A stretch of 48,501 nt of DNA, taken from NCBI GenBank assembly GCA_900316255.1, contig ONCI01000016.1:1-48501 (forward strand), read 5' to 3'. Positions within the stretch are counted from its first letter, which is position 1, and each line of letters starts with the position of its first letter. The notes under the pieces are model-generated. The model was not told the origin of the DNA, did no database searches, and was given only the letters and a program-made list of their open reading frames with translations. Both the position numbers and the translations under genes were made by a program. This DNA is from an uncultured Eubacteriales bacterium (GTDB lineage: Bacteria > Bacillota > Clostridia > Oscillospirales > Oscillospiraceae). Shown here piece by piece: positions 2,311 through 48,501 of the stretch.

Positions 2311-2592
2311 ATGGCAAAGGAAGAAACGGCGCAGCTGCCGGCGCTGCCCCACGGCCTGCGCCTGGAGGGCCGGGAAAGGCTCAGCATCACGGGGGTGCAG
2401 GACGTTTCCGGCTTTGATGAGGGTACCGTCCTGCTGGAGACCGGCCTGGGAGAGCTCTGCATCCGGGGGGAAGGGCTGCACATCGAACGGATCGACCTGA
2501 ACACCGGGGCTCTGGAGCTGCACGGCAGGGTCCGGGAGCTGAGCTATGAAGAGCCCGCCCGGGGCGGCCTGCTGTCCCGTCTCTTCTCCTGA
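2311..2592 (+). CDS. yabP: Sporulation protein YabP
   Basis: 93 residues, the usual YabP size. The body 'LRLEGRERLSITGVQDVSGF' followed by 'LLETGLGELCIRGEGLHIERIDL' is the typical YabP/YqfC beta-rich pattern, in which a self-assembling fold is needed for spore cortex formation in the mother cell. Start at 2311 follows GGGGGTGAT; the earlier ATG at 2278 overlaps the putative promoter. It is followed two bases after its stop by yabQ, then divIC and yabR. This is the gene order of B. subtilis, here without the upstream S4-domain gene. Confidence 0.93.
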   Translation: MAKEETAQLPALPHGLRLEGRERLSITGVQDVSGFDEGTVLLETGLGELCIRGEGLHIERIDLNTGALELHGRVRELSYEEPARGGLLSRLFS

Positions 2593-2593
2593 A

Positions 2594-2992
2594 ATGGGGA
2601 TCCGTCCGTCCGCCCAGGCGCTGGAGCTGCTGGGCGCGCTGCTGCTGGGCCTGGGGCTCGGTCTGGGCTACGACCTGCTGCGGCCCCCCAGACACAGGCT
2701 CGGAAAGCGGGGCGGCAGTCTGCTGGACCTGCTCTTTGCCCTGCTTGCGGGAACGGCTGCCTTCCTTCTTGCGATGCGCAGGCAGGAGGGGCGGACAGGC
2801 CTGTGGGACCTGAGCGCCGCGCTGCTGGGTTTTCTGCTCTATCTCCATGCCCTGAGTCCTGCGGTACTGCCGCTGCTGGAGCAGGGGTATCGCGTGATGT
2901 CCAACACCATGCGATTATTTAAAAAAATTGAAAAAAATCTCTGGAAATCTGCAAAAAAATCTTTCCAAACCCGGAAGAATGGATTATTATGA
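2594..2992 (+). CDS. yabQ: Spore cortex biosynthesis protein YabQ
   Basis: 132 residues. It opens with a hydrophobic segment reading 'LLGALLLGLGLGLGYDLLR', the diagnostic start of YabQ, then has two or three more membrane segments and a basic, lysine-rich tail. YabQ is an integral membrane protein of the outer forespore membrane required for cortex peptidoglycan assembly. The start is one base past the yabP stop, suggesting translational coupling. The extreme C-terminus is short and basic, like the family. Confidence 0.88.
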   Translation: MGIRPSAQALELLGALLLGLGLGLGYDLLRPPRHRLGKRGGSLLDLLFALLAGTAAFLLAMRRQEGRTGLWDLSAALLGFLLYLHALSPAVLPLLEQGYRVMSNTMRLFKKIEKNLWKSAKKSFQTRKNGLL

Positions 2993-3038
2993 TACGGTAG
3001 GTTCGGCCTTCGGACTGCCGCAAAAGGAGGTCGGAAGC

Positions 3039-3362
3039 ATGCCGGGCCCCAGGGGGATCGTTCGGATCGTCATTACTCTGCTGTTGGTCTATTCGCTGCT
3101 GTGCTTTGCCCGGGCGGGCAGGACACTTGCGGAAATGGAGCGCACAGCCGCCCGACTGGAAGAGGAGCGGGAACTGCTGGAGCAGGAGCAGGCGGAATGG
3201 AAGCTGCGTCTGCTGCAGCGGGACAGCCCCGAGCAGGTGGAGGCGCTGGCCCGGCGGGAGCTGGGCATGGTGATGCCGGGAGAGATCGTATTTCTATTTA
3301 CGCAAGAGGAAGAAGCCAATTCGGTACAGACAGAGAGGGACCCTTTATGCCGCTGGAAGTAG
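3039..3362 (+). CDS. divIC: Septum formation initiator DivIC/FtsB-like
   Basis: Start at 3039 is set by AAAAGGAGG eight bases upstream; an in-frame ATG at 2928 lies inside yabQ. The 107 residues comprise a short cytoplasmic end, one membrane helix (about residues 8-24), a coiled coil rich in Glu/Leu (about 28-65) and the FtsB/DivIC tail 'ARRELGMVMPGEIVF'. The protein acts in the divisome with FtsL and DivIB. The position between yabQ and yabR is conserved in Firmicutes. Its 3' end overlaps the yabR start by 16 bases. Confidence 0.9.
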   Translation: MPGPRGIVRIVITLLLVYSLLCFARAGRTLAEMERTAARLEEERELLEQEQAEWKLRLLQRDSPEQVEALARRELGMVMPGEIVFLFTQEEEANSVQTERDPLCRWK

Positions 3363-3802
3363 GAACTATTGTAGAAGGAAAAGTTACCGGGATCACCAAG
3401 TTCGGCGCCTTTGTGGCCCTGCCCGAAGGGAAGAGCGGCCTGGTGCATATCTCCGAGATCGCCAACAGCTTTGTCAGTGACGTGCATGAGCACGTCCAGA
3501 TGGGACAGACGGTGAAGGTCCGGGTCCTGAGCGTCAGCGAGGAGGGAAAGATCAATCTCTCCATCAAGCGCGCCCAGGAGCAGAGCCCCGCGCCGGCCGG
3601 CCGGGAGAGTTTCCGTCGGAGCAATCCGGCGCCCCGCCCTGCGCCTGCTCCAAGACCCGCCGCGGATCGCGTGGCGGCCGACGGGCCCAGCAGCAATGTG
3701 GAGTTCGAGGACAGGCTGAAGAAATTCATGCAGGAGTCGGACAGCCGCATTGCGGATAACCGCATCTATGCCGATCACCGCAGCCGGAACCGCCGGCGCT
3801 GA
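3347..3802 (+). CDS. yabR: S1-domain RNA-binding protein YabR
   Basis: The 151 residues begin with an S1 domain (about 1-73): 'VGTIVEGKVTGITKFGAFV' and 'GLVHISEIAN' are classic S1 strands, and the domain ends in 'KINLSIKRA'. The tail is rich in Pro/Ala/Arg and finishes with a short Arg-rich helix. YabR homologues associate with RNA or ribosomes; the exact role is unsettled. The start overlaps divIC and is preceded by AGAGGGA. This is the last gene of the yabP cluster; the usual downstream spoIIE/tilS/hpt/ftsH genes are absent. Confidence 0.88.
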   Translation: MPLEVGTIVEGKVTGITKFGAFVALPEGKSGLVHISEIANSFVSDVHEHVQMGQTVKVRVLSVSEEGKINLSIKRAQEQSPAPAGRESFRRSNPAPRPAPAPRPAADRVAADGPSSNVEFEDRLKKFMQESDSRIADNRIYADHRSRNRRR

Positions 3803-3814
3803 GGATGGCGTTTC

Positions 3815-3843
3815 ACCGGGGCCGGAGCATCTCCGGCCCCGGT
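3815..3843 (+). terminator. Hairpin after yabR
   Basis: Perfect 12-bp stem ACCGGGGCCGGA / TCCGGCCCCGGT with a 5-base loop, but only a weak T tract. It probably ends the yabP-yabR transcript. Confidence 0.55.
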
Positions 3844-3939
3844 TGAACACAGGGAGTGCCTTCGGCGCTCCTTATATTATGTTAGAGGATGGGTGGATTG
3901 TGCCCGGAAGAGACGCCGCCCAGCCAAAAGGAGAGAGAC

Positions 3940-5247
3940 ATGACAGACTTCGGAACTCTGTACGAGGCGAAACGCAGCACGGCGGAGGACCTGGCAGCCC
4001 GGGTGGAGAGCGGATGGCTCATCGGCATGGACGCCGCTGTGGCCGGCGCGCCCTGCATCCTGGAAGCCTTGGCGGAGCGGGCCAGGAAGGATGAATTGAA
4101 GGGCGTGCGCATCCAGACCCTGCTGGATGTCTACCCCTATGCTTTTTACGCGGACAACAGCCTCTTCGGAAAGCTGACCGGCGAGGCCTGGTTTTCCGGC
4201 GGCGGCGCCCGCAAGGCCGTGAACGCGGGCTTTGCGGACACCATTCCCAACTACTACCGGGACTGCCCGGGCCTGATCCGCAAGGGCGGGGACTATGACC
4301 TGTTCATCGCCTCCGTCTCCCCCATGGACAAGCACGGCTACTTCAGCCTGGGCGCTACCTGCTCTTATTCCCCGGCCATGCTGGAAAAGGCCAAACGGGT
4401 CTTCCTGGAGGTCAACGACCGCCAGCCCCGGGCCGTCTGCGGCGGGCAGATCCACATCAGCCAGGTGGACGGCTTTGTGGAGACCAGCTATGCCCTGCCG
4501 GTACTGCCCCCCACCAGGCAGGACGATATCAGCCGGCAGATCGGCGGCCTGATCGCGGAGCGGATCGACGACGGCTCCTGCATCCAGCTGGGCATCGGCG
4601 CCATTCCCGACGCGGTGGGCGCGGCCCTGACGGCAAAGCACGACCTGGGCATCCACACGGAGATGTTCACCGACTCCATGGTGGAGCTGATCCAGTGCGG
4701 CGCAGTGAACAACAGCAAAAAGCAGATCTACCGGGGCCAGAGCGTGACCACCTTTGCCTTCGGCTCCCAGCGGATCTACGACTATATCGACGATAACCCC
4801 GGCATCGCCATCCTGCCGGTGGACTATGTGAACGACCCCAATGTGATCTGCCAGAACGACAACATGATCTCCATCAACGCCGCCCTGGAGGTGGACCTCT
4901 GGGGTCAGGTCTGCGCGGAGAGCGTGGGCACGAAGCACATGTCCGGCACCGGCGGCCAGGTGGACTACGTCCGGGGCGCTACCCAGTCCCGGGGCGGCAA
5001 GAGCTTCATCGCCTTCTCCTCCACCACCAAGAATGACACCATCAGCAAGATCAAGTCCACCCTGACCCCCGGCGCGGTAGTCACCACCAGCAAGAACGAC
5101 GTGGACTACATCGTCACCGAGTTCGGCGTGGCCCATCTGCGGGGCGAATCCCTGGCCAGCAGGGCCAGACAGCTCATCGCCATCGCCCATCCCAATTTCC
5201 GGGACGAACTGACCTTCGAGGCCAAAAAACGGGGCATCCTCATCTGA
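3940..5247 (+). CDS. Acetyl-CoA hydrolase/transferase family CoA-transferase (butyryl- or 4-hydroxybutyrate-CoA:acetate type)
   Basis: 435 residues, close to the usual 430-450 of class I CoA-transferases of the Cat1/AbfT/But group. 'GIHTEMFTDSMVEL' carries the catalytic Glu (E241) that forms the gamma-glutamyl-CoA thioester. 'GTGGQVDYVRGA' (about 336-347) is the glycine-rich CoA loop. 'LGIGAIPDAV' is another conserved block. Such enzymes move CoA between acetate and butyrate, 4-hydroxybutyrate or propionate in the cytoplasm, often as the last step of butyrate formation. Start at 3940 follows AAAAGGAGAGA. Monocistronic. The exact acyl donor cannot be told without phylogeny. Confidence 0.88.
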   Translation: MTDFGTLYEAKRSTAEDLAARVESGWLIGMDAAVAGAPCILEALAERARKDELKGVRIQTLLDVYPYAFYADNSLFGKLTGEAWFSGGGARKAVNAGFADTIPNYYRDCPGLIRKGGDYDLFIASVSPMDKHGYFSLGATCSYSPAMLEKAKRVFLEVNDRQPRAVCGGQIHISQVDGFVETSYALPVLPPTRQDDISRQIGGLIAERIDDGSCIQLGIGAIPDAVGAALTAKHDLGIHTEMFTDSMVELIQCGAVNNSKKQIYRGQSVTTFAFGSQRIYDYIDDNPGIAILPVDYVNDPNVICQNDNMISINAALEVDLWGQVCAESVGTKHMSGTGGQVDYVRGATQSRGGKSFIAFSSTTKNDTISKIKSTLTPGAVVTTSKNDVDYIVTEFGVAHLRGESLASRARQLIAIAHPNFRDELTFEAKKRGILI

Positions 5248-29998: not shown

Positions 29999-30574
29999 TT
30001 ACACCGCAGCGTATCCGGCGCGGTAGGCCTGCAGGTTCAGCTCCTTGAATTTGGGCGGGACGGTCTCGGCGATGACGGCTTCCCAGTCGATATCGTCCAT
30101 GTGCAGGGCCTTCACCATGCCGCCGAAGAGGACGATGTTCATGCACTTGGCATTGCCCAGATCCTCCGCGATCTTCTCCGCGTTCAGGACCAGGCAGCGG
30201 TAGTGCTTCTGCATGGCCTCCAGGCAGCCCTCCGGATACTCGCAGAGCCCGGCGGCGATGCTGGAGGAGGCCATCTCATAGTCGTTGATGACGGCGACGC
30301 CCTCCGGCTTCAGGAAATCCGCGTAGCGGACGGCTTCCATCTTTTCAAAGGCCACGATGATATCCGCCGCGCCCTTGCCGATGACCGGGGACCAGACCTT
30401 GTCGCCCCAGTGAACCTGGGTGGAGACGCTGCCGCCCCGCTGGCTCATGCCGTGGACCTCGGACATTTTGACGTCATAACCGGCCTTCATCAGGCCGTTC
30501 ACCAGCACCTTGGCGGTGAGGATGGCGCCCTGGCCGCCAACGCCCACCAGCAGCGCGCTTTTGGTTTCTCTCAT
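29999..30574 (-). CDS. iorB: Indolepyruvate:ferredoxin oxidoreductase, beta subunit
   Basis: 191 residues, the normal size. 'ALLVGVGGQGAILTAKVLVNGLMKAGYDVKMSEVHGMSQRGGSV' is the gamma-domain signature of 2-oxoacid oxidoreductases. Start 30574 follows GGAAGGAG. It forms the enzyme with IorA, five bases upstream, and oxidatively decarboxylates aryl pyruvates from aromatic amino acids to aryl-acetyl-CoA while reducing ferredoxin. Confidence 0.93.
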   Translation of the reverse strand: MRETKSALLVGVGGQGAILTAKVLVNGLMKAGYDVKMSEVHGMSQRGGSVSTQVHWGDKVWSPVIGKGAADIIVAFEKMEAVRYADFLKPEGVAVINDYEMASSSIAAGLCEYPEGCLEAMQKHYRCLVLNAEKIAEDLGNAKCMNIVLFGGMVKALHMDDIDWEAVIAETVPPKFKELNLQAYRAGYAAV

Positions 30575-30579
30575 GCCGC

Positions 30580-32328
30580 TCACTCCTTCCTCGAAATGGC
30601 GCCCTTGGGGCAAACCTGGGCGCAGACGGTGCAGCCCACACACTGATTCTGGTCGATGCGGGCCTTCTTGTTCTCCACCAGGATGGCGGGGCAGCCCACC
30701 CGCAGGCAGCTCTTGCAGCCGATGCACTTGTCCGTGTCCACCACGCACTTGCCAATGTCGTGCTTGATGCCCTTGATGAGGAGACACGGACGGCGCACCA
30801 CGATGGCGGCGGGCACTTCGGAGGCGGCGGCCTTCATGACAGCCTCGTCCATGGCCTTCAGATCCTGGGGATCCACGATCTGGATGAATTCATAGCCCAT
30901 GGAGGCCAGGATCTTTTCGATGCGCAGCATCTCGGCGATCTCCCCCTGGAGGGTCTTGCCGGAGCCGGGATTGTCCTGATGGCCGGTCATGCCGGTGATG
31001 GAGTTGTCCAGCACCACGGGGATCATGGGGCCCTTGTTGTAGATGATCTCGGCGGCGCCGGTCATGCCGCTGTGGAAGAAGGTGGAGTCGCCCACCACGC
31101 CGAAGACCTTCCGGGGATCGCCGGTGAGGGCCAGGGTCTTGGCCATGCCCATGCCCACGGTGAAGCCGCCGCCCATGCAGACGCAGGTGTCCGCCGCGTT
31201 GAGGGGAGCGGCGCCGCCCAGAGTGTAGCAGCCGATATCGCCGGTGACGATGAAGTTCTTGTGCCGGGACATGGTGTAGAAGAAGCCGCGGTGGGGGCAG
31301 CCGGGGCAGAGAGCGGGGGGACGGGATACAGCGCTCACGCCCAGATCGGGGGCCTGGGGCTTTTCGCCGAAGAGCCGCTCCTTCAGCAGCTGGGGATTGA
31401 ACTCATACAGATTGCCGGTGAGCTCCTTGCCCACGCAGTCGATGCCGGCGGCCTTGATCTGCTCCTCCATGAAGGGGTCCAGCTCCTCAATGACGTAGAG
31501 CTTTTCCACCTGGGCGGCAAAGTCCCGGATGAGCTTCATGGGCAGGGGATTGGTCAGGCCCAGCTTCAGGAAAGAGGTGTCCTCGGGGAAAATATCCCTG
31601 GCATAGAGATAGGAGATGGAAGCGGTGATCACGCCCACCTTGTGGCCGCGGATCTCCATCTTGTTGAGGCAGCAGGTATTGCCGTACTCCTCCAGCTCCT
31701 TCATGTGCTTTTCCACCTTGGGGTGGTTGCGGTAGGCAAGGGCGGGGGAGCAGGAGAATTTGCCGGGGTTGCGGACATAGGGCTTGATCTCGACTTCTTC
31801 CCGCTGGCCCAGCTCCACCAGACTCTTGGAGTGGGAGACGCGGGTGGTGGTGCGGAAGAGCACCGGCGCGTCAAACAGTTCGGAGATCTTGTAGGCCTCC
31901 TTCATGAAGTCCTTGCACTCCTGGGAGTCGGATGGCTCCACCAGGGGGATCTTGGCGGCCCGGGCGTAGTGCCGGTTGTCCTGCTCGTTCTGGGAGGAGT
32001 GCATGCTGGGATCGTCCGCCGTGACGATGACCATGCCGGCGTTCACGCCGTTGTAGGCGGCGGTGAACATGGGGTCGGCCGCCACGTTCAGCCCCACATG
32101 CTTCATGGCGCAGAGGCTTCTTGCCCCGGCGATGCTGGCGCCGTAGGCCACCTCCAGAGCCACCTTTTCGTTGGGGGCCCATTCGCAGTACAGTGCGTCC
32201 TTGAACTGGGGAAGATTCTCGAAGATCTCGGTGCTGGGCGTGCCGGGATAGGCGGAGCACATGCGCGCGCCGGCCTCATAGGCGCCGCGGGCAATGGCCT
32301 CGTTCCCGGATAACAGAACCTTGTCCAT
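30580..32328 (-). CDS. iorA: Indolepyruvate:ferredoxin oxidoreductase, alpha subunit
   Basis: 582 residues from 32328 (GGAAGGAAAG upstream); a longer frame would cross the promoter. N-terminal pyrimidine-binding domain ('GNEAIARGAYEAG', 'AYPGTPSTEI'). C-terminal TPP domain ('GDIGCYTLG', 'GVVGDSTFFHSGMTG', 'VVLDNSITGMTG'). Last about 60 residues with two ferredoxin sites ('CIGCKSCLRVGC' and 'CVGCTVCAQVCP'). It binds TPP and two [4Fe-4S] clusters. It is controlled from a promoter overlapping that of the divergent LysR gene. Confidence 0.95.
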   Translation of the reverse strand: MDKVLLSGNEAIARGAYEAGARMCSAYPGTPSTEIFENLPQFKDALYCEWAPNEKVALEVAYGASIAGARSLCAMKHVGLNVAADPMFTAAYNGVNAGMVIVTADDPSMHSSQNEQDNRHYARAAKIPLVEPSDSQECKDFMKEAYKISELFDAPVLFRTTTRVSHSKSLVELGQREEVEIKPYVRNPGKFSCSPALAYRNHPKVEKHMKELEEYGNTCCLNKMEIRGHKVGVITASISYLYARDIFPEDTSFLKLGLTNPLPMKLIRDFAAQVEKLYVIEELDPFMEEQIKAAGIDCVGKELTGNLYEFNPQLLKERLFGEKPQAPDLGVSAVSRPPALCPGCPHRGFFYTMSRHKNFIVTGDIGCYTLGGAAPLNAADTCVCMGGGFTVGMGMAKTLALTGDPRKVFGVVGDSTFFHSGMTGAAEIIYNKGPMIPVVLDNSITGMTGHQDNPGSGKTLQGEIAEMLRIEKILASMGYEFIQIVDPQDLKAMDEAVMKAAASEVPAAIVVRRPCLLIKGIKHDIGKCVVDTDKCIGCKSCLRVGCPAILVENKKARIDQNQCVGCTVCAQVCPKGAISRKE

Positions 32329-32383
32329 AAGCTTTCCTTCCTTTCTGACGAATGATGAGACGAAAAGATTTTCTGCAGATTCT

Positions 32384-32412
32384 ATTCTACAAAAGCTCTT
32401 GAAATGTGTAAA
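32384..32412 (-). promoter_or_regulatory. Promoter of iorAB
   Basis: TTTACA, 17 bases, TAGAAT on the minus strand. Its -35 lies within the spacer of the divergent LysR-gene promoter. Confidence 0.7.
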
Positions 32413-32427
32413 ATACTTCCTTATAAT
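32399..32427 (+). promoter_or_regulatory. Promoter of the LysR gene
   Basis: TTGAAA, 17 bases, TATAAT. Confidence 0.75.
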
Positions 32428-32449
32428 AGGGATATAAGAATTGCTTATA
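32420..32449. promoter_or_regulatory. Putative LysR binding sites
   Basis: Three 6-bp half-sites alternate in direction: CTTATA (32420), TATAAG (32433), CTTATA (32444). The last two form a perfect TATAAG-5-CTTATA palindrome. They cover the LysR -10 region and start, fitting autoregulation and activation of iorAB. Confidence 0.6.
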
Positions 32450-32470
32450 AAGATAAGAGGATGTGATTTT

Positions 32471-33424
32471 ATGACCACCACCCAGGCCCTCTATGTGCTG
32501 GAGGTGGCCGCCTGCCGCAGCATGTCCCGGGCGGCCCAGCGGCTCTATGTGTCCCAGTCCGCCATTTCCCAGCAGATCCAGAAGCTGGAGCAGGAGCTGG
32601 GCTGCGCCCTCTTCACCCGCACGGCGGCAGGGCCGGAGCTCACCGCCGCGGGGGAGAGCTTCTGCCATCAGGCCCGGCCCGTGATCGACGCCTGGCAGAA
32701 GCTCTGCCAGGATCTGAACGCGGATAACATCACCGCCAAAAAGCAGCTGCGCATCGGGCTGGGCTCCCGGGTCTATTCCAACAGCCTCTTCCAGGACATC
32801 GTCCGCTTTTTCGACGACCGGCCGGAGATCGAGGTGTCCTTCCACACCGAGGCGGGCATGGATTTTATCCAGTCCCTCCGGCAGCAGCAGGTGGATCTGG
32901 TGCTGGACCGACTCCCGACGGAGGACTATCTGGACCGGCAGCCGGAGTATTATAACCTGCCTCTGGTGCGGGAGCGGCAGTGCATGCTCATGGCCCGGCG
33001 GGACCCCAGGGCCGGTCTGGAGGAGATCTCCATTGCCGCGCTGGAGGGGGCAACGGTGATCTCGGGCCTGGAAAACTCCGCCGAGGACCGGCAGCTCAAG
33101 GAGCTCTGCCGCCGCCACGGCATCAGCCTGAGCCGCGTCTACCGCTCCGACGGCATTGACACCAACATGAGCATGGTCCGGGGCGGGGTCGGGGTGGTGC
33201 TGGGGCCGGAATCCTTTGCCCGCTATTACAACGTTGCGGCGGTGCCCCTGTCGCCGGAGACGGAGGCCTCCCTGCGTTTCATCTGCCTGACGAGCCTGCT
33301 GCAGCGCAAGGAGATCCGGGAGCTGCGGGATCACCTGCTGCGCATCTGCCGGGAGCACAAGCTCCTGGACGGGGGAGAGAGCCAGTCTTCGGCCGCAGAG
33401 AGAAAAGAATCACGTAAGACTTGA
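32471..33424 (+). CDS. LysR-family transcriptional regulator
   Basis: 317 residues. The N-terminal winged helix reads 'LYVLEVAACRSMSRAAQRLYVSQSAISQQIQKLEQELGCALFTR', a typical LysR DNA-binding domain. The rest is a periplasmic-binding-like effector domain (about 88-295). Start at 32471 follows GAGGATG; a TTG at 32441 would overlap the operator. It is divergent from iorAB, so it is the likely regulator of aromatic 2-oxoacid oxidation. The effector is unknown. Confidence 0.93.
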   Translation: MTTTQALYVLEVAACRSMSRAAQRLYVSQSAISQQIQKLEQELGCALFTRTAAGPELTAAGESFCHQARPVIDAWQKLCQDLNADNITAKKQLRIGLGSRVYSNSLFQDIVRFFDDRPEIEVSFHTEAGMDFIQSLRQQQVDLVLDRLPTEDYLDRQPEYYNLPLVRERQCMLMARRDPRAGLEEISIAALEGATVISGLENSAEDRQLKELCRRHGISLSRVYRSDGIDTNMSMVRGGVGVVLGPESFARYYNVAAVPLSPETEASLRFICLTSLLQRKEIRELRDHLLRICREHKLLDGGESQSSAAERKESRKT

Positions 33425-43879: not shown

Positions 43880-43901
43880 CATAAGCAGAAGCTCAGACAG
43901 C

Positions 43902-43944
43902 GAAAACTCCCCGGACTTCATGAAGTGAAGTCCGGGGAGTTTTC
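43902..43944 (+). terminator. Terminator of the BlaI-like gene
   Basis: 19-bp perfect stem GAAAACTCCCCGGACTTCA / its complement, loop TGAAG, T-rich end. Confidence 0.85.
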
Positions 43945-44098
43945 TGTGTTCACGGGAGAAAAAGCAAAAACTTGGACGCGGAAAGCGCGCCTGTCTAAAC
44001 AAAGAAAAGATACGAAAACGGGGCTGCCAAAAATCCGGCGCCGTTTTTTTGCAACTTGCACCAAAATTCCGCAAAGGGACTTTTTTCCGGCGTTTTCC

Positions 44099-44198: not shown

Positions 44199-44963
44199 AT
44201 GGAGAATAAGGCCAAGATCATTACGGTCGCCGGCAAGGGCGGCGTCGGAAAGACGTCGATCTGCGCGTGCATCGTGAGGCTTCTTGCCGAGAAATATCCT
44301 GACAAGAAGATCCTCGCCATTGACGCGGACCCAGCCGTCGGTCTGTCGGTTGCTCTTGGCGTGGACGTGAAGATGACGCTGGATGATATCCGGATGAGCA
44401 TCGTGGACAGCGTGGAAAACGGGGAGACCCGGGAGGCGCTGGAGCTTCTCAGCGAGGCCCGCTTCCGCATTTTCGACGCGCTGGTGGAGATGCCCGGCTT
44501 CGCTTTCCTGGCCATCGGACGGCCGGAGAGCTCCGGATGCTACTGCAAGGTCAATTCCTATCTGAAGGAAGTCATCGGCATCCTGGCCAACAGCTTTGAC
44601 TATGTGGTCATTGACGGCGAGGCCGGGATCGAACAGATCCAGCGACGCGTGATGGAAAAGGTCACCCACCTGCTGCTGATCACCGATCAGAGCAAGAAGG
44701 GCGGCCAGGTCATCACCACCATCAAGGGTGTGGCGGACGATCTGATCTCCTACGAGAGGATCGGCGCCATCATCAACCGGGTCACCAATCCGGAGCTCGT
44801 GCCGCTCATGCAGGTGCCCGGTGTGGAGATCCTCACCGCGATCCCAGCGGACAGCGCTTTTGCGGCAAACGACATCAAGGGCAAGAGCGTTATGGAGCTG
44901 CCCGCGGATTCCTCCATGCTCAAGGGAGTGCAGGAAGCGCTCCGGAAAATAGAAATTCTATGA
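44199..44963 (+). CDS. CooC-type MinD/ParA-like ATPase
   Basis: 254 residues, start 44199 behind GAGGGGGGA. Deviant Walker A 'AGKGGVGKTS' (G12-T19), 'IDADPAVGLSVALG', and a C114-Y-C116 pair in 'SSGCYCKVNSYL', which is the metal-site motif of CooC proteins that load nickel into CO dehydrogenase. 'DYVVIDGEAGIEQIQRR' is the second switch. No CO dehydrogenase is visible in the window; instead the gene is first in an operon with 2-hydroxyacyl-CoA dehydratase subunits. It may serve a metal-delivery or ATP-dependent role for them, or for a distant CODH. Confidence 0.85.
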   Translation: MENKAKIITVAGKGGVGKTSICACIVRLLAEKYPDKKILAIDADPAVGLSVALGVDVKMTLDDIRMSIVDSVENGETREALELLSEARFRIFDALVEMPGFAFLAIGRPESSGCYCKVNSYLKEVIGILANSFDYVVIDGEAGIEQIQRRVMEKVTHLLLITDQSKKGGQVITTIKGVADDLISYERIGAIINRVTNPELVPLMQVPGVEILTAIPADSAFAANDIKGKSVMELPADSSMLKGVQEALRKIEIL

Positions 44964-44979
44964 AGAAGAGGTGTAACAT

Positions 44980-46176
44980 TTGAAAGATCTTAAGCATCTG
45001 ATCTACTTCGAACGTCTGCTTGAGAACGCCGACAATGAGCTCGTGGAAAAGGCCAAGGCCGACGGCGGCGTCTGCCTGGGCTATACCTGCTTCCACATCC
45101 CCGAGGTGCTGCTCAATGTGGACAACTGCTTCTCCACCAGACTGCGCGCACCCAACACCGGCTCCATCGACATCGCCACCTACTACATGTCCAACTACAC
45201 CTGCGAGTTCGCCCGCGCCCTGCTGGAGCGCGCCATTGAGGGCGGCTACCAGTTCCTGGACGCGCTGATCGGCGTGGACGCCTGCTCCATGATGAACCGC
45301 TCCATGGAGCACTTTGAGATCCTGCAGGTCAATGACAAGCCCAACTTCTTCGTCACCCACACCGACATGCCCTTCAAGATCACCGACTACACCATCAAAG
45401 CCTATGTGCAGCAGATGCAGGCCCACGTGCTGGACCGCATCCACGAGGTCTTCGGCGCCGACGTCTCCGACGCCTCCATCCGCAAGGCGGTGGAGCAGCA
45501 CAACGAGGTCTGCCGGATCATCTCCGAGATCCGCGAGATGCGCAAGGCCGAGAATCCCGTCATCACCGGCTATGAGTTCCACGTGCTGAACCTGGTGACC
45601 TATGTCTGCCCCAAGGCCCTGATCCTGCCCTACCTGCGGGAGACCCTGGAGGAGCTGAAGACCCGCGAGCCCGACGTCAAGAGCCCCTTCCGCGCCCGCG
45701 TGGCCATCGTCGGCTCCGAGATCGACGACCCCAGCCTCACCAAGCTCATCGAGGGCTGCGGCGCCCTGGTGGTTTCCGACCGCTACTGCTTCGGCTCCAC
45801 CCCCGGCCGCGAGGTCATTGAGCTCAACGACGAGGAGGACGCCCTGACCCAGATCTGCCGCCACTACATGGAAGTCTCCGAGTGCGCCCGCTACATCTCC
45901 GACGAGAAGGTGCTGCAGCGCCGGGAGACCGCCGACCGCCTGGCCAAGGAATTCAACGCCGAAGGCATCATCTACGAGCAGATGAAGTACTGCGACTACT
46001 GGGGCTTCGAGCGCGCCCTGGTCAGCCACATCATGCACGATGAATACGGCTGGCCCGTCCTCTCCATCGACCGTCTGTACAACAACGGCAACTCCGGTCA
46101 GCTGCGCACCCGCGTGCAGGCTTTCGTGGAGTCTCTGGAGATCAAGCGCATTCATAAAGAGGAGGGTAAAGCATAA
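44980..46176 (+). CDS. 2-hydroxyacyl-CoA dehydratase, HgdB-like subunit
   Basis: 398 residues, TTG start at 44980 with AGAGGTG six bases upstream, 16 bases after the ATPase gene. 'LGYTCFHIPEVLLNVDNCF' has the Cys (C37) expected as a [4Fe-4S] ligand; other family blocks include 'DACSMMNR' and 'CDYWGFE'. This matches the HgdB/BcrC superfamily. With the next subunit it forms a radical dehydratase that removes water from (R)-2-hydroxyacyl-CoA. The substrate (glutarate, lactate, aryl-lactate) is not decided by sequence. Its stop overlaps the next start by one base. Confidence 0.88.
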   Translation: MKDLKHLIYFERLLENADNELVEKAKADGGVCLGYTCFHIPEVLLNVDNCFSTRLRAPNTGSIDIATYYMSNYTCEFARALLERAIEGGYQFLDALIGVDACSMMNRSMEHFEILQVNDKPNFFVTHTDMPFKITDYTIKAYVQQMQAHVLDRIHEVFGADVSDASIRKAVEQHNEVCRIISEIREMRKAENPVITGYEFHVLNLVTYVCPKALILPYLRETLEELKTREPDVKSPFRARVAIVGSEIDDPSLTKLIEGCGALVVSDRYCFGSTPGREVIELNDEEDALTQICRHYMEVSECARYISDEKVLQRRETADRLAKEFNAEGIIYEQMKYCDYWGFERALVSHIMHDEYGWPVLSIDRLYNNGNSGQLRTRVQAFVESLEIKRIHKEEGKA

Positions 46177-47966
46177 TGGCAAAGGTTCAATATCCCAACC
46201 CTAAATTCTGGAAAGCCAAAGACAATATCAACTGGAAAAAGCAGGGCGAAAACCTGATGGAGGTCATGGGCATCTTCGGCGACATGCTGAAGGAGACCGA
46301 CTGGAAGGCCTTCGGCAAGGGAGCCATTGAGGGCTGCAAGGCCGATATCGAGCGCATCAAGGGCGAGTACAAGGACTTCATGGCCCTGGACAATGCCGAG
46401 AAGTGGGACCGCGTGGTCAACGGCGAGCGCAGCCTGGGCCGCCTCTACCGCAAGGGCGCCATGGCCACCGTCCGCCGCGAGTGGCGCGGCGTGAAGGACA
46501 CCGCCTATGACTTTTATGAGTGGGCCCACATGTGGGGCATGCTCCTCATGACCTTCTCCAAGGACCTGATCCCCGCCATGAACAGCGCGCTGTGGTACCG
46601 CTGGATGATCTCCTACTTCTGCTGCCACGGCTTTATGGACAAGAACATCCTGGGTCTGCGCGGCTCCAACCTGCGCATGAGCCATGAGGTCACCTTCCAG
46701 ATCTTCCGCTACGTGGCGGAGAACCTGGTCTTCCTCTCCAAGGCTGACCGGAAGAACGGCAACAGCGAGGAGCTCAACAAGATGCTCTTCACCTTCGACG
46801 AAATGACCATGGGCCAGATCGCCGCCGGCTTCCCCGATCTGCTTGCCATTCCGCACCAGCTGCTGCCCATGTTCCTGGTCTCCGAGATCGACCAGCTGGT
46901 CTGCATCCCCTATATTGACGCTGTTGAGAGCTACGGCCTGCCCTCCGACACCTGCCCGGTGCCTTCTTCCGAGTGCGGCGCCCTGGTCATCAACGCCCTG
47001 CCCGACATGGGCTCTCTGTTCATCTCCAGCTCCATGCCCTGCGACGGCTCCACCATGGCTTCCTCCTACTTTGCCCGCCGCTTCCCCAACACCCCCGTGT
47101 TCCACCTCTGCTTCCCCGTGCGTTATCTGGACGATGAGAACACCGTGCAGTACGCCGCCGAGGACATCAAGGCCTGCATCAAGGCCATCGAGGACGCCAC
47201 CGGCGCCAAGTGGAGCTGGGATGCCTACTTCACCGCCATGAAGCGCTTCAACCAGGAGACCGACCTGGAGCTGCAGAAGTGGGAGATCAACAAGTCCGCC
47301 TATCCCCAGTTCATCGGACCGAGCTATGAGCTCTTCCGCAAGTGGAACTACGAGATGGACGGCGGCATCGATCCCCGCGTCCTGCCCTCCATGGAGAAGG
47401 TCAACAAGATGCTCATGAAGGCCTATGAGAACCGCGAGACCGCCTGGCCTGCGCGCAAGATGCGCTACCGCGCCATCGTGTGGTCCTGCCCGGCCCATTA
47501 CTACGCCAACTTCTCCAACTGGCTGGCCAACTGCTGGGGCATCAACGTCCTGGTGGAGATGGAGTCTCTGAACTTCACCAAGCACCTGGAGACCGAGGAC
47601 AAGGAAGAGGCGCTGCGTGACCTGGCCCGTCTGTACGAGCGCATGGTCATGCGCCGCCACACCAACGGCGGTTACCAGAACGTGGTGGACGAGTGCTGGC
47701 GCCAGGTGGAAGCCTGGAACGCCCCGCTGGTCATCATGTACCAGAACGTGGCCTGCAAGAACATGGCCACCGTGCAGGGCATCCTGGACGAGCAGGGCCG
47801 TCAGCGCGGCTACGACCTGATCTGGGTCGAGCACGACCTGATGGATCCCCGCACCGTCTCCCGCCGCACCATGCGCGACAAGGTCAACGAGTACATGCGC
47901 ACCGTCAAGCGCGCCGAGCCCGTGGACCCGTCCCTGGTGGAGTTCGAGGACGAAGTCTGCATGTGA
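46176..47966 (+). CDS. 2-hydroxyacyl-CoA dehydratase, larger subunit with an N-terminal extension
   Basis: 596 residues, longer than the 420-480 of HgdA-like proteins. About 150-170 N-terminal residues are helical and not part of the standard fold. After them come 'LRGSNLRMSHEV' and the Cys-containing 'SDTCPVPSSECGALVINALPDMGSLFISSSMPCDGS', which fit the HgdB/BcrC-type cluster-binding region. The final part has 'LWRQ'-like helices and an acidic end. Partner of the 44980 subunit. The extension may fix the complex or bind the CooC-type protein; this is inference. A perfect 13-bp hairpin starts at its stop codon. Confidence 0.83.
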   Translation: MAKVQYPNPKFWKAKDNINWKKQGENLMEVMGIFGDMLKETDWKAFGKGAIEGCKADIERIKGEYKDFMALDNAEKWDRVVNGERSLGRLYRKGAMATVRREWRGVKDTAYDFYEWAHMWGMLLMTFSKDLIPAMNSALWYRWMISYFCCHGFMDKNILGLRGSNLRMSHEVTFQIFRYVAENLVFLSKADRKNGNSEELNKMLFTFDEMTMGQIAAGFPDLLAIPHQLLPMFLVSEIDQLVCIPYIDAVESYGLPSDTCPVPSSECGALVINALPDMGSLFISSSMPCDGSTMASSYFARRFPNTPVFHLCFPVRYLDDENTVQYAAEDIKACIKAIEDATGAKWSWDAYFTAMKRFNQETDLELQKWEINKSAYPQFIGPSYELFRKWNYEMDGGIDPRVLPSMEKVNKMLMKAYENRETAWPARKMRYRAIVWSCPAHYYANFSNWLANCWGINVLVEMESLNFTKHLETEDKEEALRDLARLYERMVMRRHTNGGYQNVVDECWRQVEAWNAPLVIMYQNVACKNMATVQGILDEQGRQRGYDLIWVEHDLMDPRTVSRRTMRDKVNEYMRTVKRAEPVDPSLVEFEDEVCM

Positions 47967-48132
47967 TCGAAAAGGCAGGGCCTTTTCGATCAGAAGCCTT
48001 CCCCTTGAGGGGAAGGTGCCCCAGTGCGCAAACTGGGGCGGATGAGGTGAGAACAATCCGGCAGAGCTGGACAAGAAACGAACACCTCATCAGTCAGCCT
48101 GACGGCTGACAGCTTCCCCTCGAGGGGAAGCC
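47964..48132 (+). repeat. Hairpin-repeat array inside the dehydratase operon
   Basis: Starts with the 13-bp perfect stem TGATCGAAAAGGC / GCCTTTTCGATCA, whose first bases are the stop codon. Then follow two family copies in opposite orientation: CCTTCCCC-TTGA-GGGGAAGG with GCCCCAGT..ACTGGGGC (47992-48050), and CACCTCATCAGTCAGC..GCTGAC with CTTCCCC/GGGGAAG (48083-48132). GGATGAGGTG and CACCTCATC between them form an outer inverted repeat. Confidence 0.85.
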
Positions 48133-48162
48133 AATAAAGAATTAACGGAGGTTATTATAAAC

Positions 48163-48501
48163 ATGAAGTATTTCGGCGGTTGTGACGTAGGATCCACCTA
48201 CACCAAGGCAGTCATTCTGGACGAGAACGGCAAGATGGTAGCCGACACCACCATCAAGAGCAAGATCAATTCCGAGCAGAGCGCCATCGCGGCGATGGAC
48301 GAAGTGCTGAAGAAGGTCGGCCTGCAGAGCAGCAAGGAGCTGGAGTACCTGATCGGTACGGGCTACGGCCGCAACAAGGTTCCCTTTGCGGACGAGAACA
48401 TTTCCGAGATCAGCTGCCACGCCATGGGCGTGCACGTGACGGATCCCAGCGTGAAGGCCATCATCGACATCGGCGGCCAGGACGTCAAGGGCATCAGCAT
48501 C
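48163..48501 (+). CDS. 2-hydroxyacyl-CoA dehydratase activator (HgdC/BadF-type ATPase), N-terminal part
   Basis: 113 residues visible; the 3' end lies outside. Start at 48163 follows ACGGAGG. 'FGGCDVGSTYTKAVILDENG' is the ASKHA phosphate-1 motif. 'LIGTGYGRNKVPFA' and 'EISCHAMGV' are typical of HgdC, and 'AIIDIGGQDVKGISI' is phosphate-2 region. The activator is a homodimeric iron-sulfur ATPase that injects an electron into the dehydratase. It belongs with the two upstream subunits despite the 196-base gap filled by repeats. Confidence 0.93.
   Translation, partial: MKYFGGCDVGSTYTKAVILDENGKMVADTTIKSKINSEQSAIAAMDEVLKKVGLQSSKELEYLIGTGYGRNKVPFADENISEISCHAMGVHVTDPSVKAIIDIGGQDVKGISI

Follow-up and report, generated by a model that had tools for sequence, protein, structure and literature searches.

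The question raised by this locus is which protein is served by a CooC-type ATPase that is encoded directly before a pair of 2-hydroxyacyl-CoA dehydratase family genes. CooC-type ATPases are usually read as signs of CO dehydrogenase/acetyl-CoA synthase (CODH/ACS) metabolism. Here the ATPase was found in a conserved system which often occurs without CODH and in which it is accompanied by a double-cubane-type enzyme and a fragment of ACS. The analysed stretch of DNA (the window, 48,501 nucleotides) is the entire contig C75 and ends within the activase gene of the operon.

The ATPase and its operon

The ATPase, CooC-A (254 aa; 44199-44963, plus strand), was assigned to the CooC/AcsF-type MinD-class ATPases by profile, PDB search, alignment and tree. 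The deviant Walker A motif GKGGVGKT comprises residues 12-19 (44232-44255, plus strand). The CYC metal-site motif (C114 and C116; 44538-44546, plus strand) was aligned with that of CooC 3kje, the best PDB match (E 1.5e-16), the cysteines of which are given as Cys112/Cys114 in PMC6006190. G12-K-G-G, G17-K-T and both CYC cysteines were invariant in all the CooC/AcsF-type ATPases aligned (33/33; alignment A5, hand-picked for brevity), confirming the motifs named in the initial annotation. N193 was considered as the G4 asparagine of CooC and rejected, the alignment to 3kje giving no support.

CooC-A was defined by at least 54% identity to the window copy (observed range 54-93%); the next match in the 200 genomes of the family was 38%, and the other ATPases of the 33-sequence alignment were 26-36% identical. 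In the tree, CooC-A formed one side of a branch with the support of 100/98 and was located nearer to AcsF-type ATPases than to CODH-linked CooC. MinD-class profiles score on CooC-A as well, and in the structure of CooC the CxC dimer interface contains Zn (PMC6006190). Both points fit a role in which CooC-A, as a relative of MinD and NifH whose Zn is structural, would not carry metal and would instead control assembly or electron transfer through ATP. This role is rather improbable, considering that the nearest tree relatives, with the exception of the long-branched ATPase of L058, are AcsF-type ATPases beside ACS and that the operon partner is ACS-like.

The stop codon of CooC-A ends at 44963 and the small HGD-D subunit gene (398 aa; 44980-46176, plus strand) starts with TTG 16 bp further. 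The large-subunit gene (596 aa; 46176-47966, plus strand) begins on the final base of the small-subunit gene. Both matched PF06050, so that the spacing and the family of the genes next to the ATPase were as annotated initially. The activase also noted there (BcrAD_BadFG by profile; 48163-48501, plus strand) is represented by its first 113 codons and is separated from the large subunit by a gap (47967-48162) with palindromic repeats (TTCCCCTTGAGGGGAAGG...), the length of which is very variable among genomes. Upstream of CooC-A, an inverted repeat of 24 nt that is flanked by A and T (43897-43949; 92% complementary) was detected. It is terminator-like, and it is absent from the terminator-like sites of the scan. 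Since the repeat parts the operon from the upstream neighbour, a penicillinase-repressor-type gene, CooC-A most likely opens the operon, as had been proposed.

The contig C119 opens with the 31 terminal codons of an activase gene, probably the one that is cut in the window, followed by an ACS-like gene (L177:498-1244). The operon thus comprises five genes, encoding CooC-A, the small subunit, the large subunit, the activase and the ACS-like protein CDHC, the last of which was invisible to the initial annotation because the contig ends inside the activase gene. The collinear five-gene order was found in 22 loci on 20 different contigs, two of which are represented twice, and two further families contributed five loci with the complete operon; this recurrence argues against a chance arrangement. 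The distance between CooC-A and the small-subunit gene was 3-39 bp in 21 of the 22 collinear loci (two pairs being the same contig). Medians for the collinear loci were calculated from 21 of 23 loci. L040 and L053 duplicate the contigs of L149 and L170 and were therefore omitted; L050 remained in the set despite its enzyme pair being a different paralogue on the other strand. Among the matches listed for open-licence PMC papers, as far as their accessible text goes, no description of the five-gene operon was found, and CdhC together with 2-hydroxyglutaryl-CoA dehydratase gave no match in open-licence PMC papers. A conserved five-gene operon in gut Clostridia, many of them without CODH, points to an undescribed metal-loading system.

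CDHC and the enzyme subunits

CDHC, about 245 aa long, is homologous to the middle domain of ACS, is encoded as a separate protein and has a C-terminal CxxCx5C motif. PF03598 was above the cut-off in CDHC of L040, L043 and the window genome's own copy. The CDHC profile matched ACS residues 334-482, weakly by sequence (best E 0.0016). The model of CDHC (pLDDT 84.6) gave 22 PDB matches at E <= 0.001, all of them ACS/CdhC, and the profile and the model together predict the ACS middle-domain fold. The pLDDT of the three-cysteine region was mostly below 50.

The three cysteines (C213, C216 and C222 in the numbering of L144) were invariant in 80/80 CDHC sequences (best 80 of 329 loci) and were the only cysteines kept in all. 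Two patterns were used to retrieve these loci and C222 is part of one of them; therefore the invariance of C222 is partly built in. All three cysteines were also present in the 6/6 sequences from other families, which were found by profile and were 32-50% identical to the best library member. The motif was better conserved than the remainder of the protein. Alignment A2 of CDHC comprised 56 of the 80 sequences, hand-picked for brevity. The ligand set of the ACS A-cluster includes the CGC dinickel site. CGC was present in the ACS alignment, and CDHC, with three conserved cysteines, does not contain the complete set. The CxxC of CDHC presumably sits where ACS has the first A-cluster cysteines.

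In the small subunit, C37, C75, C102, C270, C302 and C338 were aligned with the double-cubane cysteines of BzdN, C36, 73, 100, 263, 293 and 327 (PMC11971306), and the six were present in 35/35 small subunits. C260, C289 and C527 were the only cysteines common to all 36 large subunits aligned. Both sets include near-copies, contigs represented twice and paralogous pairs. By our reading of the alignment, HadC aligns at four of the six positions, and MbdN, which forms the small subunit in a different type of benzoyl-CoA reductase, at three, so the six-cysteine set is no mark of all benzoyl-CoA reductases. The small subunit scored below the NCBIfam equivalog cut-offs for both BzdN (83.3 against 453.8 bits) and the double-cubane reductase (137.3 against 350 bits). 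Because it retains all six cysteines of BzdN and HadC four, the operon enzyme, judged by its sequence, resembles the double-cubane enzymes more than the classical dehydratases. The HAD-type set of two HGD-D subunits and a BadF-type activase stands as initially annotated; 'dehydratase', in view of the six cysteines of BzdN/DCCP, is a family label only.

The initial annotation had suggested that the ATPase might use the helical N-terminal extension of the large subunit. This gained no support as a docking site: all 20 matches of the large-subunit model (pLDDT 73.7) at E <= 0.001 were HGD-fold chains, and the two paralogous enzyme pairs in the window's genome share part of the extension (match from residue 80-82) and have no adjacent ATPase. 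C438, frequent among the operon-type large subunits, was weighed as the mark of a special cluster and dropped, as it is V in the operon-type L052_5603 and C in the non-operon-type L117 and L052_13682.

Distribution of the operon and of CO dehydrogenase

In the 200 genomes of the family, the large subunit was detected in 19, CooC-A in 17 and CDHC in 17, all in the same ten genera (kinship ignored). All 17 CooC-A genomes fall within the 19 large-subunit genomes, and 16 CDHC genomes are shared with CooC-A. Among the matches listed, by whose named genomes the within-genus counts are defined, six members of the genera g4, g29, g31 and g80 had no CooC-A (G003, G122, G184, G031, G185, G154). The same six had neither the large subunit nor a full CDHC, G003 retaining a CDHC tail. 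Confinement of the linkage to one species, which would have spoken against the initial annotation, was thus rejected, the linkage being found in several genera and three families.

PF03063, which covers CODH and hybrid-cluster protein, had no match in the entire 96%-complete assembly of the window, extending the absence of CODH noted for the window itself. Screening of 39 CooC-A loci (6.5-48.5 kb each, the window among them and a few contigs represented twice) revealed neither CODH nor ACS, so that an adjoining CODH, which would also have spoken against the initial annotation, was not found there. In 13 of the 17 CooC-A genomes of the family PF03063 was not found; the association of a CooC-type ATPase with this type of enzyme is conserved across several families, mostly in genomes that lack CODH. 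A CODH elsewhere in the genome was rejected as the client of the ATPase for the window's genome and for these 13. The PF03063 proteins of the remaining four (G029, G079, G173 and G196) may be CODH or hybrid-cluster protein. In other families, three of six CDHC genomes had PF03063 proteins, none of them on the stretch examined around the operon.

The PF03063 proteins in four CooC-A genomes, and an activase that is the sole CoA_E_activ match in G036, G051, G123 and G136, genomes with one to several enzyme pairs, would be expected if the genes were a clade-level collection, the activase serving all the enzyme pairs and CooC-A and CDHC being passengers or relics of a CODH/ACS pathway that has been lost. 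Such an origin is very improbable: the order is preserved across three families at the low CDHC identities given above, the genes are jointly present or absent within four genera (among the matches listed), and the cysteine motif is conserved better than the rest of CDHC.

The client of the ATPase and known systems

The link of CooC-A to the operon enzyme is well supported, and the initial annotation is borne out in so far as a second, CooC-type ATPase accompanies this type of enzyme. The direct client of the ATPase is likelier CDHC than the enzyme, because AcsF acts on ACS and because six contigs are split, CooC-A adjoining CDHC away from the operon-type enzyme genes. The best explanation, to which we give somewhat less than even confidence, is that CooC-A is a metallochaperone, probably for nickel, with CDHC as its first client and CDHC as the partner of a double-cubane enzyme. 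The small subunit would carry an [8Fe-9S]-type site and the large subunit a [4Fe-4S] site, with the activase donating electrons. A dimer of CooC-A would hold a metal at its CxC site, and homology makes Ni(II) the most likely one; ATP would then be used to load this metal into CDHC, by analogy with AcsF and ACS. Once loaded, CDHC may serve the enzyme as one of its subunits or as a partner that either bears a cofactor or handles CoA.

The loci also include departures from the pairing of CooC-A with CDHC. G169 is opposite to the split loci: its CooC-A adjoins the enzyme genes, and its CDHC lies at a separate place. A lone CDHC was seen in 5 of 80 loci (best 80 of 329), G102 has CDHC without CooC-A, G196 has CooC-A without CDHC, and G080 has a second, lone CooC-A. 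The exceptions in G102 and G196 may be assembly gaps. In the genus g4 (L058, L072), another CooC-type ATPase directly follows the subunits of a Bzd-like reductase; a metal-sensing repressor (PF02583) adjoins it, and the locus has no CDHC. All of these were counted against the best explanation, together with the PF03063 proteins in 4/17 and 3/6 genomes, the missing CGC and low-pLDDT cysteine region of CDHC, and the three cysteines of MbdN.

The g4 locus favours the enzyme itself as the client, as in the initial reading that CooC-A acts directly on the double-cubane enzyme. CooC-A would then supply either subunit with a metal, as Ni replacing Fe or as part of a cluster, or would carry out a step in its assembly, and CDHC would be a scaffold or side partner. 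The short distance to the small-subunit gene, the large-subunit family in every CooC-A genome and the arrangement in G169 agree with direct action. We consider it possible but rather unlikely, since the split loci place CooC-A with CDHC, two of the three enzyme pairs in the window's genome have no adjacent ATPase, and CooC, nickel and maturation are all absent from the main text of a double-cubane reductase paper (PMC11971306).

A more specific and doubtful possibility is a hybrid nickel enzyme, in which CDHC, with an Fe-S cluster that contains nickel or is site-differentiated and is loaded by CooC-A, would form a complex with the activase-driven [8Fe-9S] reductase. If true, the ACS architecture would be used outside the Wood-Ljungdahl pathway, and nickel dependence would appear in the HAD/BCR family for the first time to our knowledge. 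If the preferred metallochaperone reading is true, the family gains a metal-loading step, the ACS middle domain has an existence of its own, and a tractable route is obtained to asking how double-cubane enzymes mature. The annotation of cooC or cdhC alone is insufficient to call CO metabolism in gut Clostridia.

In comparison with known systems, CooC-A shares the deviant Walker A, the CxC, the length and the sequence family with AcsF/CooC, lies on the AcsF side of the tree and has an ACS homologue as its neighbour. In contrast to them, it forms a separate branch, its partner is a double-cubane-type enzyme, and its loci contain an ACS-domain homologue instead of CODH or full-length ACS, neither of which was found there. 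CDHC has the middle (A2) domain fold of ACS/CdhC, but it lacks the N-terminal domain and the CGC dinickel site, and CxxCx5C replaces the full A-cluster set. HadBC/HadI resemble the operon enzyme in the two HGD-D subunits and the activase; HadC differs by its reduced cysteine set, and we know of no CooC or CDHC with HadBC. Class I benzoyl-CoA reductases and double-cubane enzymes share the six small-subunit and three large-subunit cysteines and the BadF-type activase, whereas the operon enzyme is far below the equivalog cut-offs and has a long large subunit, CooC-A and CDHC. The isoprene reductase operon of Acetobacterium wieringae, as described in PMC10134865, contains the Ni chaperone genes hypA and hypB beside an iron-sulphur reductase; its enzyme and chaperones are unrelated to those studied here, but it likewise places Ni chaperones beside a reductase that is no known Ni enzyme.

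Operon layout and enzyme subunits

The genome studied is a 2.71-Mb draft (136 contigs, 96% complete), and the window is its complete contig C75. The four operon genes, all on the same strand at the right end of the window, encode the CooC-type ATPase, CooC-A (44199-44963, 254 aa), the small (44980-46176, 398 aa, TTG start) and large (46176-47966, 596 aa) HGD-D proteins and a BcrAD_BadFG activase, which the contig end truncates after 113 codons (48163-48501). The subunit genes overlap by one base, and the gap at 44963/44980 confirmed the 16 bp noted by the initial annotation between the ATPase and dehydratase genes. A 24-nt inverted repeat (43897-43949), absent from the terminator list of a consensus scan, sets the operon apart from a penicillinase-repressor-type gene, so the operon most likely opens with CooC-A, in agreement with the initial annotation. 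A repeat element of palindromic sequence (TTCCCCTTGAGGGGAAGG... and CTTCCCCTCGAGGGGAAG) fills the gap before the activase (47967-48162). Across collinear loci, the large subunit-activase gap ranged from -7 to 703 bp.

By sequence, the nearest solved relative of the small subunit was BzdN (E 1.5e-24), followed by DCCP, HadC and MbdN. According to a passage of PMC11971306, the double-cubane [8Fe-9S] cluster is bound by Cys36, 73, 100, 263, 293 and 327 of BzdN, and the catalytic [4Fe-4S] cluster by Cys95, 128 and 380 of BzdO. In alignments all six BzdN positions were cysteines in the small subunit (C37, C75, C102, C270, C302, C338) and likewise in DCCP, whereas HadC and MbdN had aligned cysteines at four and three of them, respectively. 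The six cysteines were invariant in 35/35 small subunits; C260, C289 and C527 of the large subunit, whose fold is that of HGD near BzdO and HadB, were conserved in 36/36. Judged from these residues, the enzyme carries the cysteine set of double-cubane enzymes, and "dehydratase" is a family name only. Since the enzyme scored below the curated cut-offs of both the BzdN and the double-cubane equivalogs, it was filed as neither.

Elsewhere in the window, YabQ, DivIC, S1 and acetyl-CoA hydrolase/transferase genes are consecutive (2546-5247). By eye, this row apparently lies 3' of the fifth operon gene, CDHC, in 17-28 of 98 loci; in the own genome the two are on different contigs. A two-gene pyruvate/indolepyruvate-type ferredoxin oxidoreductase (POR, a TPP enzyme with Fer4 domains; 30002-32481, minus strand) is in line with amino-acid fermentation.

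Conservation and gene order

In relatives, a gene of 239-265 aa, CDHC, comes 3' of the activase; it lies outside the window and was thus not visible to the initial annotation. In the own genome it was located at C119:498-1244, after the final 31 codons of an activase, so the operon probably continues from C75 to C119. The activase had a median amino acid conservation of 87.5%, versus 52-69% for its operon neighbours. Apparent near-identical second activase copies, judged from equal scores, were seen at contig ends in G004 (C28:1-648, C10:1-648) and G109 (C6, C8); such copies would explain the frequent assembly breaks within this gene.

Among 200 genomes of the own family (106 genera, an even sample of a larger group), members of the large-subunit family (E <= 1e-60) were found in 19, CooC-A (at least 54% identity) in 17, all within those 19, and CDHC (E < 1e-100) in 17. 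CooC-A and CDHC occurred together in 16 genomes; G102 had CDHC without CooC-A, G196 (85% complete) CooC-A without CDHC, and G191 neither, apart from a distant CDHC paralogue. Fisher tests of co-occurrence, which ignore phylogeny, gave p = 9e-23 and 2e-21. The joint presence or absence within genera is a better sign: in g4, g29, g31 and g80, further listed genomes (G003, G122, G184, G031, G185, G154) had none of the three, G003 retaining a 34-codon CDHC tail.

A protein of the CODH/hybrid-cluster family PF03063 was present in four CooC-A genomes and absent in 13 of 17. The CooC-dehydratase linkage is not confined to one species. Among 391 genomes of the class, CDHC was detected in six besides the own, across three other families, PF03063 being present in three and absent in three. 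The complete operon was found in five of these (f31, f58); at the sixth locus (f12) the contig end truncates the row after large subunit-activase-CDHC.

Of the best 80 of 329 CDHC contigs, 65 had the activase immediately 5', four had CooC-A adjacent with the activase absent, five had CDHC alone and six were uninformative. The five genes were collinear, in the order CooC-A, small subunit, large subunit, activase, CDHC, at 22 loci (20 after removal of two duplicate contigs). At six split loci (G041, G130, G153, G079 and contigs in L175 and L176) CooC-A adjoins CDHC. An operon-type large subunit was located elsewhere in G041, G079 and G153, and fragments of one in G130; the enzyme genes about 3 kb off in G079 are those of another paralogous pair. 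G169 shows the opposite split, CooC-A with the enzyme genes and CDHC elsewhere.

The CooC-A ATPase

The assignment to the CooC type made by the initial annotation was borne out: the top PDB match was CooC (3kje, E 1.5e-16) with the CYC motif in register, and the P-loop core and both cysteines were invariant across 33 aligned CooC-type ATPases picked by hand. In CooC, Cys112 and Cys114 hold Zn at the dimer interface, as stated in a passage of PMC6006190. In a midpoint-rooted maximum-likelihood tree, 22 CooC-A formed one side of a branch (support 100/98) and were nearer to ATPases adjoining ACS (AcsF-type) than to those adjoining CODH, the "AcsF" and "ACS" labels being assigned from sequence and adjacent genes; in L064, a PF03063 match falls on the CODH. 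Besides the full operon, G080 carries another CooC-A (L055:8987-9748), 54% identical to that of the window; CDHC or enzyme genes were not found in the 18-kb stretch around it.

CDHC and the proposed role of the ATPase

PF03598 (CdhC) scores were 28.6 for L040, 24.4 for L043 and 24.7 for the own copy, against a cut-off of 24 bits; the search gave no match for the L208 copy from another family. A 56-sequence CDHC profile gave a weak match to the middle domain of Moorella ACS, residues 334-482 (E 0.0045; E 0.0016 for the best ACS chain), and hhalign against an ACS alignment placed it in the same region with 83% probability. The AlphaFold model had a pLDDT of 84.6, and 22/22 PDB matches at E <= 0.001 were ACS or CdhC.

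AcsF reportedly loads Ni into ACS. That the AcsF-like CooC-A shares its operon with the ACS-like CDHC suggests, by analogy, that it would load CDHC with a metal, Ni being the most likely, and that CDHC would work with the double-cubane enzyme, to which the activase would supply electrons. CDHC might also handle CoA esters, as an interaction with CoA is proposed for the ACS middle domain (in a passage of PMC12289521). The comparisons showed one conserved module; the later steps we infer.

The initial annotation was right in linking a CooC-type ATPase to the enzyme, and half right in its interpretation; its reading that the ATPase acts on the enzyme directly is now the main rival to the loading of CDHC. 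In favour of direct action, in g4 (L058, L072) a different CooC-type ATPase, adjoining a metal-sensing repressor, lies 3' of Bzd-like subunits, with CDHC absent at the locus. Besides this ATPase and repressor, the two stretches (L058:4302-10115, L072:8100-13914) hold a Bzd-like reductase operon of two activases, a ferredoxin-like protein and two HGD-D subunits, one L058 activase scoring above the BzdQ cut-off. The small repressor of L058 matched PF02583, and the same repressor cluster was found at the ACS loci L066, L067, L071 and L073. As a whole, the system is more unusual than the initial annotation described; searches of open-licence PMC papers gave no published description of the operon among the matches listed.

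A distant CDHC paralogue (30-33% identity) in genus g41 (L181, L182, L183 of G191, G130, G041) keeps the ACS-like domain without the C-terminal three-cysteine motif. In CDHC itself the motif, D-C-x2-C-x5-C-[DE]-x2-[ED]-G...H, follows that domain. Its three cysteines were invariant in 80/80 sequences, C222 having belonged to one search pattern behind this set, and were kept in 6/6 profile-found homologues from other families, in which the motif was the best-conserved stretch. A CxxC placed behind the middle domain likewise provides ACS with its first two cluster cysteines. CDHC is without the dinickel CGC motif of ACS.
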